From NCBI GenBank assembly GCA_029937545.1, contig JAPYPR010000009.1, forward strand, positions 4,616-68,615: a stretch of 64,000 nt of DNA, in the 5' to 3' direction. The notes beneath the pieces are model-generated. The model did not search any database. It was given only the letters and a program-made list of their open reading frames with translations, and was not told the DNA's origin. A program made the position numbers and the translations under genes. This DNA comes from Erythrobacter sp. (GTDB lineage Bacteria; Pseudomonadota; Alphaproteobacteria; Sphingomonadales; Sphingomonadaceae). How positions within the stretch are numbered: the first letter of the stretch is position 1; every line of letters starts with the position of its first letter. Positions 24,780 through 49,760 of this stretch are shown piece after piece.

Positions 24780-26207
24780 ATGACGGGCAACGCCGAATTC
24801 TTCGACGAGATGCATGGTGCCGATGGCAGCGTGCGCGACGCCTATGAGCGATATTGCGACTGGTTCGACGAGCAAAAGACCGGCTTGCTCAAGCGAAAGC
24901 ACGCCGAGGCCGAAACGAATTTCCGCAAGACCGGGATCACTTTCAACGTCTATGGCGAGGACGAGGCCGAGGAACGGCTGATCCCCTTCGACATGGTGCC
25001 GCGCGTTATCACCGCGTCCGAATGGCGCAAGCTCACCCGCGGGATCGAGCAGCGCGTGTCGGCGCTCAACGCCTTCATGCACGATCTCTACCACCGGCAG
25101 GAGATCATTCGCGCCGGGCGCATTCCGGAGCGGTTGTTCCGGGACAATGCCGCGTGGCTGCCGAACATGGTCGGCTTCACGCCGCCGGGCGGGGTTTACA
25201 CGCATATCGTCGGCATCGACCTGGTCCGCACCGGGCCGGATGAATTCTACGTGCTGGAAGACAATGCCCGCACGCCATCGGGCGTCAGCTACATGCTGGA
25301 AAATCGCGAAACGATGATGGCGATGTTCCCCGAGCTGTTCATGCGCGTGCCGGTGGAGCAGGTCTCCGACTATCCGCGCCGCCTCGCCAAGAGCCTCGCT
25401 GCCTGCGCGCCCCATTGCACCGAGGGCAAGCCGACCGTCGCCGTGCTTACGCCGGGGATCTACAATTCTGCCTATTTCGAACACGCCTTCCTCGCCGACC
25501 AGATGGGCGCGGAGCTGATCGAAGGCAGCGATTTAAGAGTGATCGACGGGCGCGTTGCTATGCGCACGACGCATGGGTTCCAGCCGGTCGACGTGATCTA
25601 TCGCCGGGTGGACGACGACTTCCTCGATCCGATGACCTTTAACGAGGACAGCGTGCTGGGCGTGCCGGGCATCATGGATGTCTACCGCGCGGGCGGCGTC
25701 ACCATTGCCAATGCACCGGGGACGGGGGTTTGCGACGACAAGGCAATCTACTCCTTCATGCCAGAGATCGTCGAATTCTACACCGGCGAGAAACCCTTGC
25801 TGCCGAATGTCGAAACGCACCGCTGCGCCGATGAAGAGACGCTGAAATACGTGCTCGATAATCTCGAGGAGCTGGTGGTCAAGGAAGTGCACGGCTCTGG
25901 TGGCTACGGCATGCTCATCGGCCCTGCGGCCTCGAAGAAAGAGATCGACGAGTTCCGCAAGAAGCTGGTCGAAAACCCCGAGAATTACATCGCGCAGCCC
26001 ACCCTGTCGCTCTCGACCTGCCCGATCTTCACCAAGAAGGGCCTCGCGCCGCGCCATGTCGACTTGCGGCCCTTCGTGCTCGTGTCGCCCGACAAGGTCG
26101 ACATCACGCCGGGTGGCCTCACGCGCGTGGCGCTGAAAGAGGGTTCGCTGGTGGTGAACTCGAGCCAGGGCGGCGGCACCAAAGACACCTGGGTGCTCAA
26201 AGACTGA
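24780..26207 (+). CDS. Circularly permuted ATP-grasp protein of the Anbu operon
   Basis: A 475-residue circularly permuted ATP-grasp type 2 protein (COG2308). Landmarks are FNVYGEDEAEERLIPFDMVP, LPNMVGFTPPGGVY, YVLEDNARTPSGVSYMLENR, VDVIYRRVDDDFLDP, ELVVKEVHGSGGYGMLIGP and PRHVDLRPFVL. This gene typically travels with alpha-E, transglutaminase and Anbu genes, as here. ATP-grasp enzymes ligate carboxylates to amines, so it may build a peptide-like bond; its substrate is not known. The stop overlaps the alpha-E start (TGATG). ATG 24780 follows a GGGGGAC stretch. Confidence 0.92.
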   Translation: MTGNAEFFDEMHGADGSVRDAYERYCDWFDEQKTGLLKRKHAEAETNFRKTGITFNVYGEDEAEERLIPFDMVPRVITASEWRKLTRGIEQRVSALNAFMHDLYHRQEIIRAGRIPERLFRDNAAWLPNMVGFTPPGGVYTHIVGIDLVRTGPDEFYVLEDNARTPSGVSYMLENRETMMAMFPELFMRVPVEQVSDYPRRLAKSLAACAPHCTEGKPTVAVLTPGIYNSAYFEHAFLADQMGAELIEGSDLRVIDGRVAMRTTHGFQPVDVIYRRVDDDFLDPMTFNEDSVLGVPGIMDVYRAGGVTIANAPGTGVCDDKAIYSFMPEIVEFYTGEKPLLPNVETHRCADEETLKYVLDNLEELVVKEVHGSGGYGMLIGPAASKKEIDEFRKKLVENPENYIAQPTLSLSTCPIFTKKGLAPRHVDLRPFVLVSPDKVDITPGGLTRVALKEGSLVVNSSQGGGTKDTWVLKD

Positions 26208-27151
26208 TGCTGGGAAGAACCGCCAACGGACTGTTCTGGATGTTCCGCTATCTCGAGCGGGCGGAGAATACCGCGCGCCTGCTCGACGCCGGCTTGCGCA
26301 TGGCGCTTACCCGCGACCTCGTGACTGCCGAAGAGGAATGGCGTTCGGTCATGGCCACTGCGGGGCAAAAGCAAGGATACGAGGCCAAACACGGTACCTA
26401 CACCGGCATGCAGGCCTGGAATTACATGCTGCGGGACAAGGACAATCCCGCCTCGATCCTGTCGATGTTTGGGCAGGTCCGCCAAAATGCCCGCCTCGCC
26501 CGCAATGCTATCAGCGGCGAGCTGTGGGAAGCGATCAACGAGAACTGGTTGGTCATGGAGAAACAGCTTGGGAAGCCGGTGGGCGAGAACCGCGTACTCG
26601 ACACGGTGGCCACCATTCGCCGCGCCGGTACGCTGGCGCATGGCGCAATGGAAGGCTCCATGCTGCGCGACGAAGGCTATCATTTCGCCCAGGCCGGTAC
26701 GTTCATCGAGCGTGCCGACAGCATCGCGCGCATCCTCGACATCAAATATTACCTGCTGTTGCCCTCGCTGTCCTATGTCGGCTCGAGCCTCGATACCGGC
26801 CAGTGGGACCAGGTATTGCGATCCGTCTCCGGCGACCGCGCCTATCGCTGGCTCAACGCCGGACAGATCGATGCCAAGGGCATCTGCGAGTTCCTGATCC
26901 TCGACGATGCCTTCCCGCGCAGCCTGGCCTTTTGCCATTCCGAACTTCGCGCGAATCTCGCCGCGCTCGCGCGCCTCCATGGGCGAGAGGGCCAGAGCAA
27001 CGAGTTGATGCGCGAAGCCGATACGCGCATCGCCGACCTCACCATCGAGGAGGTCTTCGACCAAGGACTGCACGAATTCCTGATCGAATTCATGTCCAGC
27101 AACGCAGCGATCGGCCAGGCGATCGCACAAGATTACCGGTTTCTCGCCTAA
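26207..27151 (+). CDS. Alpha-E domain protein of the Anbu operon
   Basis: A 314-residue all-helical alpha-E protein (COG2307), the regular partner of the permuted ATP-grasp protein. The N-terminal LGRTANGLFWMFRYLERAENTARLLDAGLRM is the family signature. Later hallmarks are RAGTLAHGAMEGSMLRDEGYHF and FIERADSIARILDIKYYLLL. The ATG overlaps the upstream stop (TGATG). The gene's own TAA stop is immediately followed by the MITE-like element, whose target duplication is that same TAA. Function is unproven; it may act as a subunit or scaffold of the ATP-grasp enzyme. Confidence 0.92.
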   Translation: MLGRTANGLFWMFRYLERAENTARLLDAGLRMALTRDLVTAEEEWRSVMATAGQKQGYEAKHGTYTGMQAWNYMLRDKDNPASILSMFGQVRQNARLARNAISGELWEAINENWLVMEKQLGKPVGENRVLDTVATIRRAGTLAHGAMEGSMLRDEGYHFAQAGTFIERADSIARILDIKYYLLLPSLSYVGSSLDTGQWDQVLRSVSGDRAYRWLNAGQIDAKGICEFLILDDAFPRSLAFCHSELRANLAALARLHGREGQSNELMREADTRIADLTIEEVFDQGLHEFLIEFMSSNAAIGQAIAQDYRFLA

Positions 27152-27417
27152 GGACCTGCCTGTCCCATTCTCATCGACAAGACGGAGCCAATTTTGACGC
27201 TAGCCAAGGAACGGGGAGAGGATCGATGACAGTTCATCGAAATCGACAAGTGACGCTGGATTGCGTCAAAATTGGCCCGTCGCTTCGCGGTCGCCCGCAA
27301 AGGTCCAGCGGGCGCGTTCTTCGTCTTGGCCGGGCGGTGAGCCCGACCTGCGTCTCACTCCTTCCCCCTGAACCTTTGCGGGCGATCTTGCTCGAGGAGA
27401 ATGGGGCAGGCAGGTCC
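27152..27417. mobile_element. MITE-like element inserted in the Anbu operon
   Basis: A 266-bp element with 21-bp terminal inverted repeats matching at 20 of 21 positions (27152-27172 and 27397-27417; outer ends GGACCTGCCTG / CAGGCAGGTCC). It is flanked by direct TAA repeats (27149-27151 and 27418-27420). Inside are two more stems: GCCAATTTTGACGC (27187-27200) with its complement at 27263-27276, and CGCCCGCAAAGGT (27292-27304) with its complement at 27372-27384. A 7-bp hairpin lies at 27223-27240. Removing the element plus one TAA gives TAATG, an exact overlap of the alpha-E stop with the transglutaminase start. There is no transposase. A 3-bp TNA-type duplication is known for some IS5-family (IS1031-group) elements; that link is an inference. 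Confidence 0.75.
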
Positions 27418-27420
27418 TAA
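27226..27420 (+). CDS. Possible 64-codon ORF inside the MITE-like element
   Basis: An open frame starting MTVHRNRQVTLDCVKIG and ending ENGAGRS. GGGGAGAGG lies 4 nt before its ATG, which is a good ribosome-binding site, and its TAA (27418-27420) overlaps the transglutaminase ATG. It may be translated and so restore coupling between the alpha-E and transglutaminase genes, or it may be chance. The ATG is buried in a 7-bp hairpin stem. No domain is recognised and the protein is basic and low in complexity. Confidence 0.25.
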   Translation: MTVHRNRQVTLDCVKIGPSLRGRPQRSSGRVLRLGRAVSPTCVSLLPPEPLRAILLEENGAGRS

Positions 27421-28238
27421 TGCGCCTCTCTATCCGACATACCACCCGCTATCGCTTCGACACTCCGGTCGTGCATGCGCTCCAGCGCTTGCGCCTGACG
27501 CCGAAGGAAACGCAGGGGCAGGAAATTCTCGAATGGGAGATGGAGTATGAGAACGCCCATCCCGAACTGACGTACGAGGACCAGCATCATAATACGACGA
27601 CGCTGGTCTCCGTCGAAAGCGGATCGCAGGAAGTGCGTGTGACGTGCCATGGCAAAGTCGACACGCACGATCATGCAGGCGTGATCGGACGCCATGCGGG
27701 CCATCTTCCGCTCTGGAGCTTCCGCGGACAGACGGATCTCACCCGCCCTGGGCCGGGCATGAAGAAGCTGCTCAAAGAGATCGAGAAGAGCGAGGACAGC
27801 GGTCTCGATCGCCTCCACCGGCTTTCGGCAACGATCCTGGAGCGGGTGGAGTACCAGACCGGGACCACCCATTCGCGAACCAGCGCGGAAGAATCCTTCG
27901 CCTCGGCCCACGGCGTGTGCCAGGACCATGCGCATATTTTCATCGGCTCCGCCCGCGCGCTGGGCATTCCAGCCCGCTACGTCAGCGGCTATCTCATGAT
28001 GAACGACCGGATCGACCAGGAAGCCAGCCATGCCTGGGCCGAAGCGCATGTCGAAGGGCTCGGCTGGGTCGGATTCGATATTTCCAACGGGATAAGCCCC
28101 GACGAACGCTATGTCCGCGTTGCCACGGGCCGCGATTATCGCGATGCAGCGCCGGTAACCGGGATCAGTTTCGGCACGACATCGACCGTGCTCGAAGTCG
28201 ATGTCGCGGTCGAACAACAGCAGATACAGCAGCAGTAG
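27420..28238 (+). CDS. Transglutaminase-like protein of the Anbu operon
   Basis: A 272-residue transglutaminase-fold protein (COG1305). An N-terminal beta domain (RLSIRHTTRYRFDTPVVHALQ) is followed by the catalytic domain with Cys167 in AHGVCQDHAHIF, His204 in EASHAWAEAHV and Asp220 in GWVGFDISNG, a complete triad. The family is a regular neighbour of Anbu, alpha-E and ATP-grasp genes, and may cleave or form amide bonds in that system. The start overlaps the duplicated TAA at the right end of the MITE-like element, and no other ribosome-binding site lies between the element and this gene. Its translation may thus depend on the inserted sequence. Confidence 0.92.
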   Translation: MRLSIRHTTRYRFDTPVVHALQRLRLTPKETQGQEILEWEMEYENAHPELTYEDQHHNTTTLVSVESGSQEVRVTCHGKVDTHDHAGVIGRHAGHLPLWSFRGQTDLTRPGPGMKKLLKEIEKSEDSGLDRLHRLSATILERVEYQTGTTHSRTSAEESFASAHGVCQDHAHIFIGSARALGIPARYVSGYLMMNDRIDQEASHAWAEAHVEGLGWVGFDISNGISPDERYVRVATGRDYRDAAPVTGISFGTTSTVLEVDVAVEQQQIQQQ

Positions 28239-49318: not shown

Positions 49319-49367
49319 CCTAGGGAAGCGCGGATGCGCTTCACGCATACAATAAACCCCTGCTCAC

Positions 49368-49395
49368 TTCACATTAAGCTGCGACGCTCTATATA
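49368..49395 (+). promoter_or_regulatory. Promoter of the tmRNA gene
   Basis: TTCACA (49368-49373) and TATATA (49390-49395) with a 16-bp spacer resemble a strong housekeeping promoter. They are placed so that transcription would begin near 49402, just before the acceptor part of the tmRNA. Confidence 0.6.
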
Positions 49396-49401
49396 GGACC
49401 T

Positions 49402-49760
49402 CGCCGGTTACGATCGGCTATGGCGATAAATTGCGCCGTGCAATAGGTACAACGGACCCGGGGGCAGTACCCGGCGGCTCCACCACAATCCGCGGTTTTA
49501 CGCGGTTTCTGACGGGGCCGAACCAGGATCGACGTGTGCTGAAAGACGGTGTTTTCGCCCGGGCTGAGTATCCCGTGAAACTGTTCACAACACACAAGTG
49601 CCAACGATAACGAAGCACTCGCTCTCGCTGCGTAATCTGACGGGCTAACGCCCTGATCTTACAAAGCTAAAGCGCGGTCGGACCCACCGGGCAACAGAAG
49701 CGGATTCCGGGGCCCCGGGGAGAGGCTAGCAACAGAATCTCCCCACTCATTCGCTAGATT
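49402..49760 (+). ncRNA. ssrA: Two-piece (circularly permuted) tmRNA
   Basis: Permuted transfer-messenger RNA, which rescues stalled ribosomes. The acceptor part comes first: T-stem CCGGG/CCCGG (49458-49462 and 49470-49474) with 7-nt loop GGCAGTA, then CGGCTCC and ACCA ending at 49485. After a 28-nt spacer, the coding part starts at 49514 with GGGGCCG, which pairs with CGGCTCC and creates the G3-U70 wobble required for alanine charging. AACCAGGATCGACG follows. The tag frame (49600-49635) encodes ANDNEALALAA and a TAA stop. Downstream a pseudoknot is visible: stem GGGGAGA/TCTCCCC (49717-49723, 49738-49744), with loop CTAGC pairing to GCTAG (49753-49757). Outer ends are approximate. Confidence 0.93.

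Follow-up and report, generated by a model that had tools for sequence, protein, structure and literature searches.

A transposase-less inserted element with a conserved folded core at a stop/start junction of an Erythrobacter operon

We analysed a 64,000-nucleotide stretch of DNA from Erythrobacter sp. (the window). A 266-bp insertion on its plus strand (27152–27417) lies at the stop/start junction between a gene for an alpha-E domain protein (26207–27151, plus strand; PF04168) and a transglutaminase-like gene (27420–28238, plus strand; PF01841 and PF08379). By Pfam domains, the gene order is ATP-grasp, alpha-E, transglutaminase-like, and proteasome-fold. This set would be the Anbu operon named in the initial annotation; what our analysis shows is the Pfam domains. 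The initial annotation described a 266-bp element with 21-bp terminal inverted repeats between direct TAA flanks, and a recount bears this out: the left repeat (27152–27172, plus strand) matches the right repeat (27397–27417, minus strand) at 20 of 21 positions. The left TAA (27149–27151) is the alpha-E stop codon and, as judged from empty junctions in relatives, its TA is the left copy of the duplicated target. The right TAA (27418–27420) overlaps the transglutaminase ATG at 27420. The limits of the element are given by the match of its ends, by its fold, and by its absence from 24 of the 27 junctions that we read in the genus. It carries no transposase gene, and deletion of the element plus one TAA gives TAATG, both as first described. 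When we scanned the window with the terminal end, allowing up to three mismatches, the only hits were the two ends of the element (shuffled sequences gave a mean of 0.01).

The fold that had been proposed, with an outer stem, two long inner stems and a small hairpin, is also upheld by its energy: positions 27140–27430 fold at -164.5 kcal/mol, as compared to -107.3 ± 5.2 kcal/mol for 200 shuffles (z = -11). All of the inner parts are on the plus strand. Helix A pairs 27181–27200 with 27263–27281, and across the family its mismatches show an excess of G.U over A.C (see below). Within it, the tandem G.A core has its 5' strand at 27208–27224 and its 3' strand at 27239–27254; of the four G.A steps, this copy keeps two and has two half altered. 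The apical hairpin (27224–27239) contains the ATG of an internal reading frame. A small linker hairpin (27280–27290; columns 100–110 of the model alignment) joins helix A to helix B, which pairs 27291–27303 with 27373–27385. In both orthologous copies, a G-C pair of helix B has become A-T by a double change.

To see what lies at the same junction in close relatives, as had been suggested, we searched for the transglutaminase gene and found it in 57 of the 60 genomes of the genus. Among 30 loci, 27 junctions were readable, including the window's own (L151, L156 and L168 fell outside our script's filter). Three are filled, 23 are empty and read TGATG, and one (G075) is empty and reads TAATG, as expected if the genes originally overlapped and the element was inserted. 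The filled junctions are in the window's genome (G000), G078 and G035; each copy is 266 bp, and the copies are 93–94% identical. The insertion is old and common to the three species. G070 and G076 have the empty TGATG even though they are about as near to G000 as the filled species are, and in all, two of five close relatives have no element at the junction. In those two, the element either was dispensable or has been replaced. Simple excision is unlikely because their junctions read TGATG, like most of the genus. Either introgression or an old polymorphism would explain the empty sites; these are inseparable because the gene trees of the two flanking genes conflict with each other.

The window's copy has no second full-length sequence match in its own genome. 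However, another genome of the genus, G073, has relatives of it at 70–71% identity, with the same architecture and different helices. From six copies, we built a covariance model of the 116-nt core, which has matches in 77 of 397 genomes of Sphingomonadaceae (35 of 96 genera) and in 9 of the 60 genomes of the genus; these counts are lower bounds, as few first-look candidates were scored per genome. G073 has 16 matches, part of which are opposite-strand matches to the same copy. So related copies do occur elsewhere, as the initial annotation anticipated, both within the genus and well outside it. The window's genome has a second copy (L065; G000:C100:63159-63274), which a TAA stop precedes and a TAATG start follows. 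L065 is in sense orientation and has its own 64-codon frame that ends at the junction, like the window's copy, and its ends are different.

Terminal repeats are present in 108 of the 114 copies examined (all but L051, L066, L069, L071, L102 and L115), and 102 of these could be trimmed; the six copies without a repeat and the six more that could not be trimmed are left out of the 102. Of the delimited copies, 84 are 265–271 bp long, 16 are 164–205 bp, one is 280 bp, and one is 331 bp. With ends trimmed by a script so that copies start with G, the flanks have the consensus YTA...TAR (Y at left -3 in 92 of 101 copies, R at right +3 in 94 of 101), and TA is present at both flanks in 44 of 102. YTAR is the target of the IS427 group. 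A TNA duplication had been proposed, and these flanks are better described by a duplicated TA within a YTAR target. One set of fetched copies took its orientation from the family-wide table of core-model matches, without rescoring. Among 100 copies with distinct flanks, the left junction is the stop of a frame of at least 120 codons in 38, and the right junction is such a stop on the other strand in 32. The stop-codon junctions would fit a TA target if TA in these genomes occurs most often within stop codons. Overall, the element is short and without a transposase, with terminal inverted repeats, a target duplication, dispersed copies and empty sites, all of which suit the original label of MITE. 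What that label omits is the core, which is conserved across phyla under differing ends. When three elements were compared to 72,556 plasmid records with blastn, we found no match. That is surprising for mobile elements; plasmids of such hosts may be scarce in the collection. Nor did blastn find a match to one element in E. coli genomes.

What might move these elements? A search with PF13340 found DUF4096 loci in 4 of 12 copy-bearing genomes, including an 836-bp insertion sequence (IS; 840 bp with the TA on both sides) with ends GGGTCAGGACCCATTG. A pattern search identified an intact 842-bp IS in G419 (846 bp with the TA on both sides), which has two frames (DUF4096 and DDE_Tnp_1). At 16 and 17 of 20 positions, the two ends of the G419 IS agree with the best-matching of all the element ends, which come from elements in other genomes; G419's own element copy gave no terminal repeat. 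The IS5/IS427 members described in PMC3281130 are 832–865 bp, with 2-bp duplications in all but one of those listed and with two overlapping frames. We therefore file the mobiliser as IS427-group type. The elements share the TA duplication with this group and may share its type of end, and the IS in L191 fits the group in size, duplication and frame layout. The elements differ from the group in having no transposase and an interior that is not known to be IS-derived; in unsystematic inspection, we met no IS that bears the core. Of the parent IS with matching ends that the initial annotation suggested looking for, we thus have ISs flanked by TA whose ends are similar, but none with the window copy's own ends among the IS loci searched. 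We also considered a parent within the window's genome, where ends GGGTCCGGACTCATTA occur six times at contig edges, but these match the ends of neither element copy. The GGGTCCGGACTCATTA ends lie at the edges of contigs C20, C30, C88, C99 and C100 of G000, and IS5-type copies probably break the assembly there. Most likely, the mobiliser would be an IS5-family transposase of the IS427-group type that acts in trans.

Although their terminal repeats differ, the copies have a conserved core in common, a long stem that carries a ladder of tandem G.A mismatches. Across 62 copies from Sphingomonadaceae (less than 90% identical), the distal stem has two adjacent mismatches at each of four steps, and each of these steps reads G.A / A.G in 46 to 59 rows. 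At one site, A.G (47 rows) alternates with C.A (14 rows; 1 row is mixed; p = 5e-13), and at a second site, G.A (46 rows) alternates with A.C (8 rows; others, 8 rows; p = 9e-6). These p-values overstate the number of events, as related copies share ancestry. By eye, the C.A state is also seen in actinobacterial, verrucomicrobial and Aureimonas copies. Swaps of this type would fit a sheared G.A geometry. At its gathering score, Rfam 15 has no match in the element, and in 12 loci it identified three tRNA genes only; otherwise there are just six sub-threshold matches. Among searchable texts, which exclude most subscription papers, those matched by core strings have titles that point to other subjects where listed, and topic searches listed no paper on the family; it may be undescribed.

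An exact pattern for the core matches at least 120 stretches of named genomes. Among the matches listed, 40 of 120 are outside Sphingomonadales-type records, judging by record titles: 25 from Bacteroidota, 7 from Actinomycetota, 1 from a metagenome-assembled genome (MAG) of Verrucomicrobiota, 3 from Aureimonas, and 4 from Bacillus sp. 2B10. Two further stretches among those listed are titled only Alphaproteobacteria. The Bacillus label (L252, L255, L258 and L287) is doubtful because the GC content is 0.67–0.69 in the three stretches measured; their copies are of the alphaproteobacterial type. The named strains Paramuribaculum intestinale DSM 100749 and Gordonia rhizosphera NBRC 16068 carry the core, so mixing within MAGs is not the whole answer. 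(An exact pattern cannot measure base conservation; the within-family G.A rows do.) Terminal repeats score at least 11 in 101 of 121 core-pattern matches, three of which are weak (L229, L274 and L324). A second model, of 59 nt of the core, has matches in 41 of 398 genomes of Pseudomonadota (26 of 212 genera), of which 6 are Sphingomonadaceae and 5 more are other Alphaproteobacteria. In 9 of 12 cores that we placed from other Pseudomonadota, the apical stem is TTTGG/CCAAA-like; therefore, the general core includes neither the ATG nor the full Shine-Dalgarno-like string.

If a paired site mutates by a transition, then G.U and A.C mismatches should be equally common, unless the fold of one strand matters. 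Across 58 distinct copies of at least 255 bp (out of 74 distinct copies), G.U mismatches outnumber A.C mismatches by 55 to 12 in helix A (p = 1e-7). The ratios are 25:35 in the terminal repeats and 40:52 in helix B. The excess recurs outside of Sphingomonadaceae, with 50:13 in the stem that adjoins the core (24 distinct copies). (That analysis, like the operon-class counts below, is without L251, L353, L354, L358, L362 and L361, and copies with short flanks were dropped. Our first count of mismatches, 84 G.U and 27 A.C, used a model-fitted alignment, which leans towards the model, and we do not rely on it.) The excess of G.U over A.C implies that one strand folds, either as RNA or as single-stranded DNA. 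Only helix A is thus maintained as a fold of one strand, the one that corresponds to the window's plus strand. In 30 of the 94 loci searched, the minus strand of helix B is recognisably like helix A.

The folded strand most likely acts as RNA, with single-stranded DNA as the next candidate. Under the latter explanation, which we consider unlikely though still worth weighing, the hairpin is needed for transposition, for instance as a signal while the DNA replicates or once it is excised. This would account for a core that is common to elements with different ends and for the nearly even orientation relative to genes (38 and 32 of 100), and G.T pairs and G.A ladders can form in single-stranded DNA as well. 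However, the local GC skew of the flanks gives no sign of a replication-strand bias (mean 0.005, p = 0.15, n = 96; this is a weak test). Furthermore, if the fold matters only while the element is moving, then long-resident copies would not be expected to diverge slowly, and they do.

Specifically, pairwise comparison of the three filled species gives 16, 18 and 15 differences over the 266 sites of the element (6.0, 6.8 and 5.6%), and 71/291, 63/290 and 47/288 at the fourfold sites of the two flanking genes (24, 22 and 16%; p = 1e-9, 5e-7 and 7e-5). So at the window's locus, the element diverges 3–4 times less than the flanking fourfold sites. The recent spread of one allele would also give low divergence, but we reject this because fourfold-site divergence does not fall beside the junction. 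At five orthologous sites, divergence of the element compared to the fastest codon position of the flanks is.06 v.23–.25,.05 v.18–.23,.02 v.19–.23,.06 v.15–.31, and.20 v.37–.45, where the third-position rates are the highest of the three phases. The window's site was located through its flanking gene. The other four were found via the fold, which may favour survivors; they point the same way as the window's site, L099/L340 weakly on one side. Using the fold of one sequence, there are 1–2 pair-keeping double changes at the window's locus and 0, 1, 2 and 10 of 11 at the other four sites. Single changes at the window's locus keep or break pairs about equally, with a third expected to be kept by chance. 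(Our first count used a fold from both sequences, which makes its finding of no broken pairs circular; the one-sequence recount is weaker.) Paired sites change less than unpaired sites do, with no clear significance at the window's locus (p = 0.03–0.38) and with p = 0.004 at L101/L128.

These rates also bear on the proposal that this is an ordinary dead MITE, which is palindromic by nature and passive, with an inner structure that has no role in movement or in the operon. The hallmarks are there (terminal repeats, duplication and fold), two of five close relatives do without the element, and a review (PMC10969869) states that transcripts of MITEs contain stable stem-loops. Nevertheless, we think that this is improbable: a passive interior does not explain why core sequence and fold are kept across phyla under differing ends, why the G.U excess is found in helix A alone and recurs outside the family, or why divergence at the five orthologous sites (four of them chosen via the fold) is at or below that of the fastest flank codon position.

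The internal frame has 64 codons (27226–27420, plus strand). It begins with the ATG at 27226, which is preceded by a Shine-Dalgarno-like GGAGAG, and it ends with the TAA that overlaps the transglutaminase ATG. (It is the end of a longer mechanical frame, 26338–27420.) The frame is open in all three filled species, and its product has no match in Pfam or NCBIfam. In several other copies, the frame stops after 2–5 codons. In L130, it meets no stop and continues into the next frame downstream, which looks like RecG and would gain an N-terminal extension. A small protein gene is very improbable as the general function, despite an AGGAGG 5 nt before the ATG in alphaproteobacterial copies, peptides that are alike at their start, and a frame that is open in the three orthologues and in the pair L101/L128, because no reading frame is conserved across the family (it shifts with loop length), most cores from other Pseudomonadota have no ATG, and the likeness of the peptides follows from the conserved bases of the fold.

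The frame may matter where the element sits within an operon. Of 99 copies, 11 in sense orientation and 2 in the other orientation are flanked by two same-strand frames. For 10 of the 11 sense copies (one orthologue was removed), the stop of the frame coincides with the right junction in 6, versus 10 of 87 other copies (p = 0.001), and the frame is open through the end in 7 of 10, versus 33 of 87 (p = 0.09). The class was defined after examples had been seen, although blind to the frame, and 12 of the 97 copies have no start site that fits our pattern and were counted as not open. This suggests that the copies that are tolerated within operons are those that let ribosomes reach the next start.

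We propose that an old, non-autonomous insertion, mobilised by an IS5-type transposase, has a structured core and couples translation through the operon by its frame. We put the probability of this reading at roughly 70%. The transposase-less element would have been moved in trans by a transposase of the IS427-group type, into a YTAR target whose TA was duplicated. It comes from a bacterial family whose members have one conserved core in common: a long stem with a distal ladder of tandem, probably sheared, G.A mismatches, a short apical hairpin and usually a second hairpin. A single strand forms the fold, most likely as RNA. As the element is sense-oriented in the operon, its internal start would open the 64-codon frame, which ends in the TAA supplied by the target itself, and ribosomes would then reach the overlapping transglutaminase start much as they do at the relatives' TGATG. 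We infer that the element was kept for preserved operon expression, and that coupling would be its role at this locus. Against our proposal, insertions overall show no bias to the sense orientation (38 vs 32 of 100). Also against it are several findings given above: no IS with this copy's ends among the loci searched, G419's own copy without a terminal repeat, the two half-altered G.A steps, frames cut short in other copies and cores without the ATG, the pair counts at this locus, and the empty TGATG of G070 and G076.

More tentatively, at somewhat less than even odds, the G.A-ladder hairpin may itself be the selfish unit: a module common to several phyla that has repeatedly been paired with different IS5-group ends, that is needed for spread or for tolerance in transcripts, and whose copies stay under selection where they landed. 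The core may serve movement, tolerance or the expression of host genes; action at the RNA level is the most likely, followed by action as single-stranded DNA. MITEs are usually seen as shrunken insertion sequences with an irrelevant interior. Here, the interior is kept and the ends change. Since copies at fixed sites still evolve slowly, what a MITE needs besides its ends becomes directly testable. And this locus shows how an operon can stay translatable after an element has inserted where a stop and a start overlap.

Several known families resemble the element in part. REP/BIME elements and REPINs also have two hairpins in inverted order as the mobile unit, but our element has terminal inverted repeats, a TA duplication, longer hairpins and the G.A ladder. 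ERIC, Correia and RUP elements are also short and folded, with TA-type flanks, and can sit in transcripts, but they have other sequences. The Chunjie MITE of Geobacter uraniireducens is of similar size (178–235 bp) and has a copy inside an operon (PMC10969869). This likeness is by description, and the passages on it report no core common to other bacteria. Elsewhere in the window, positions 49364–49708 hold an ordinary alphaproteobacterial permuted tmRNA gene (Rfam RF01849).
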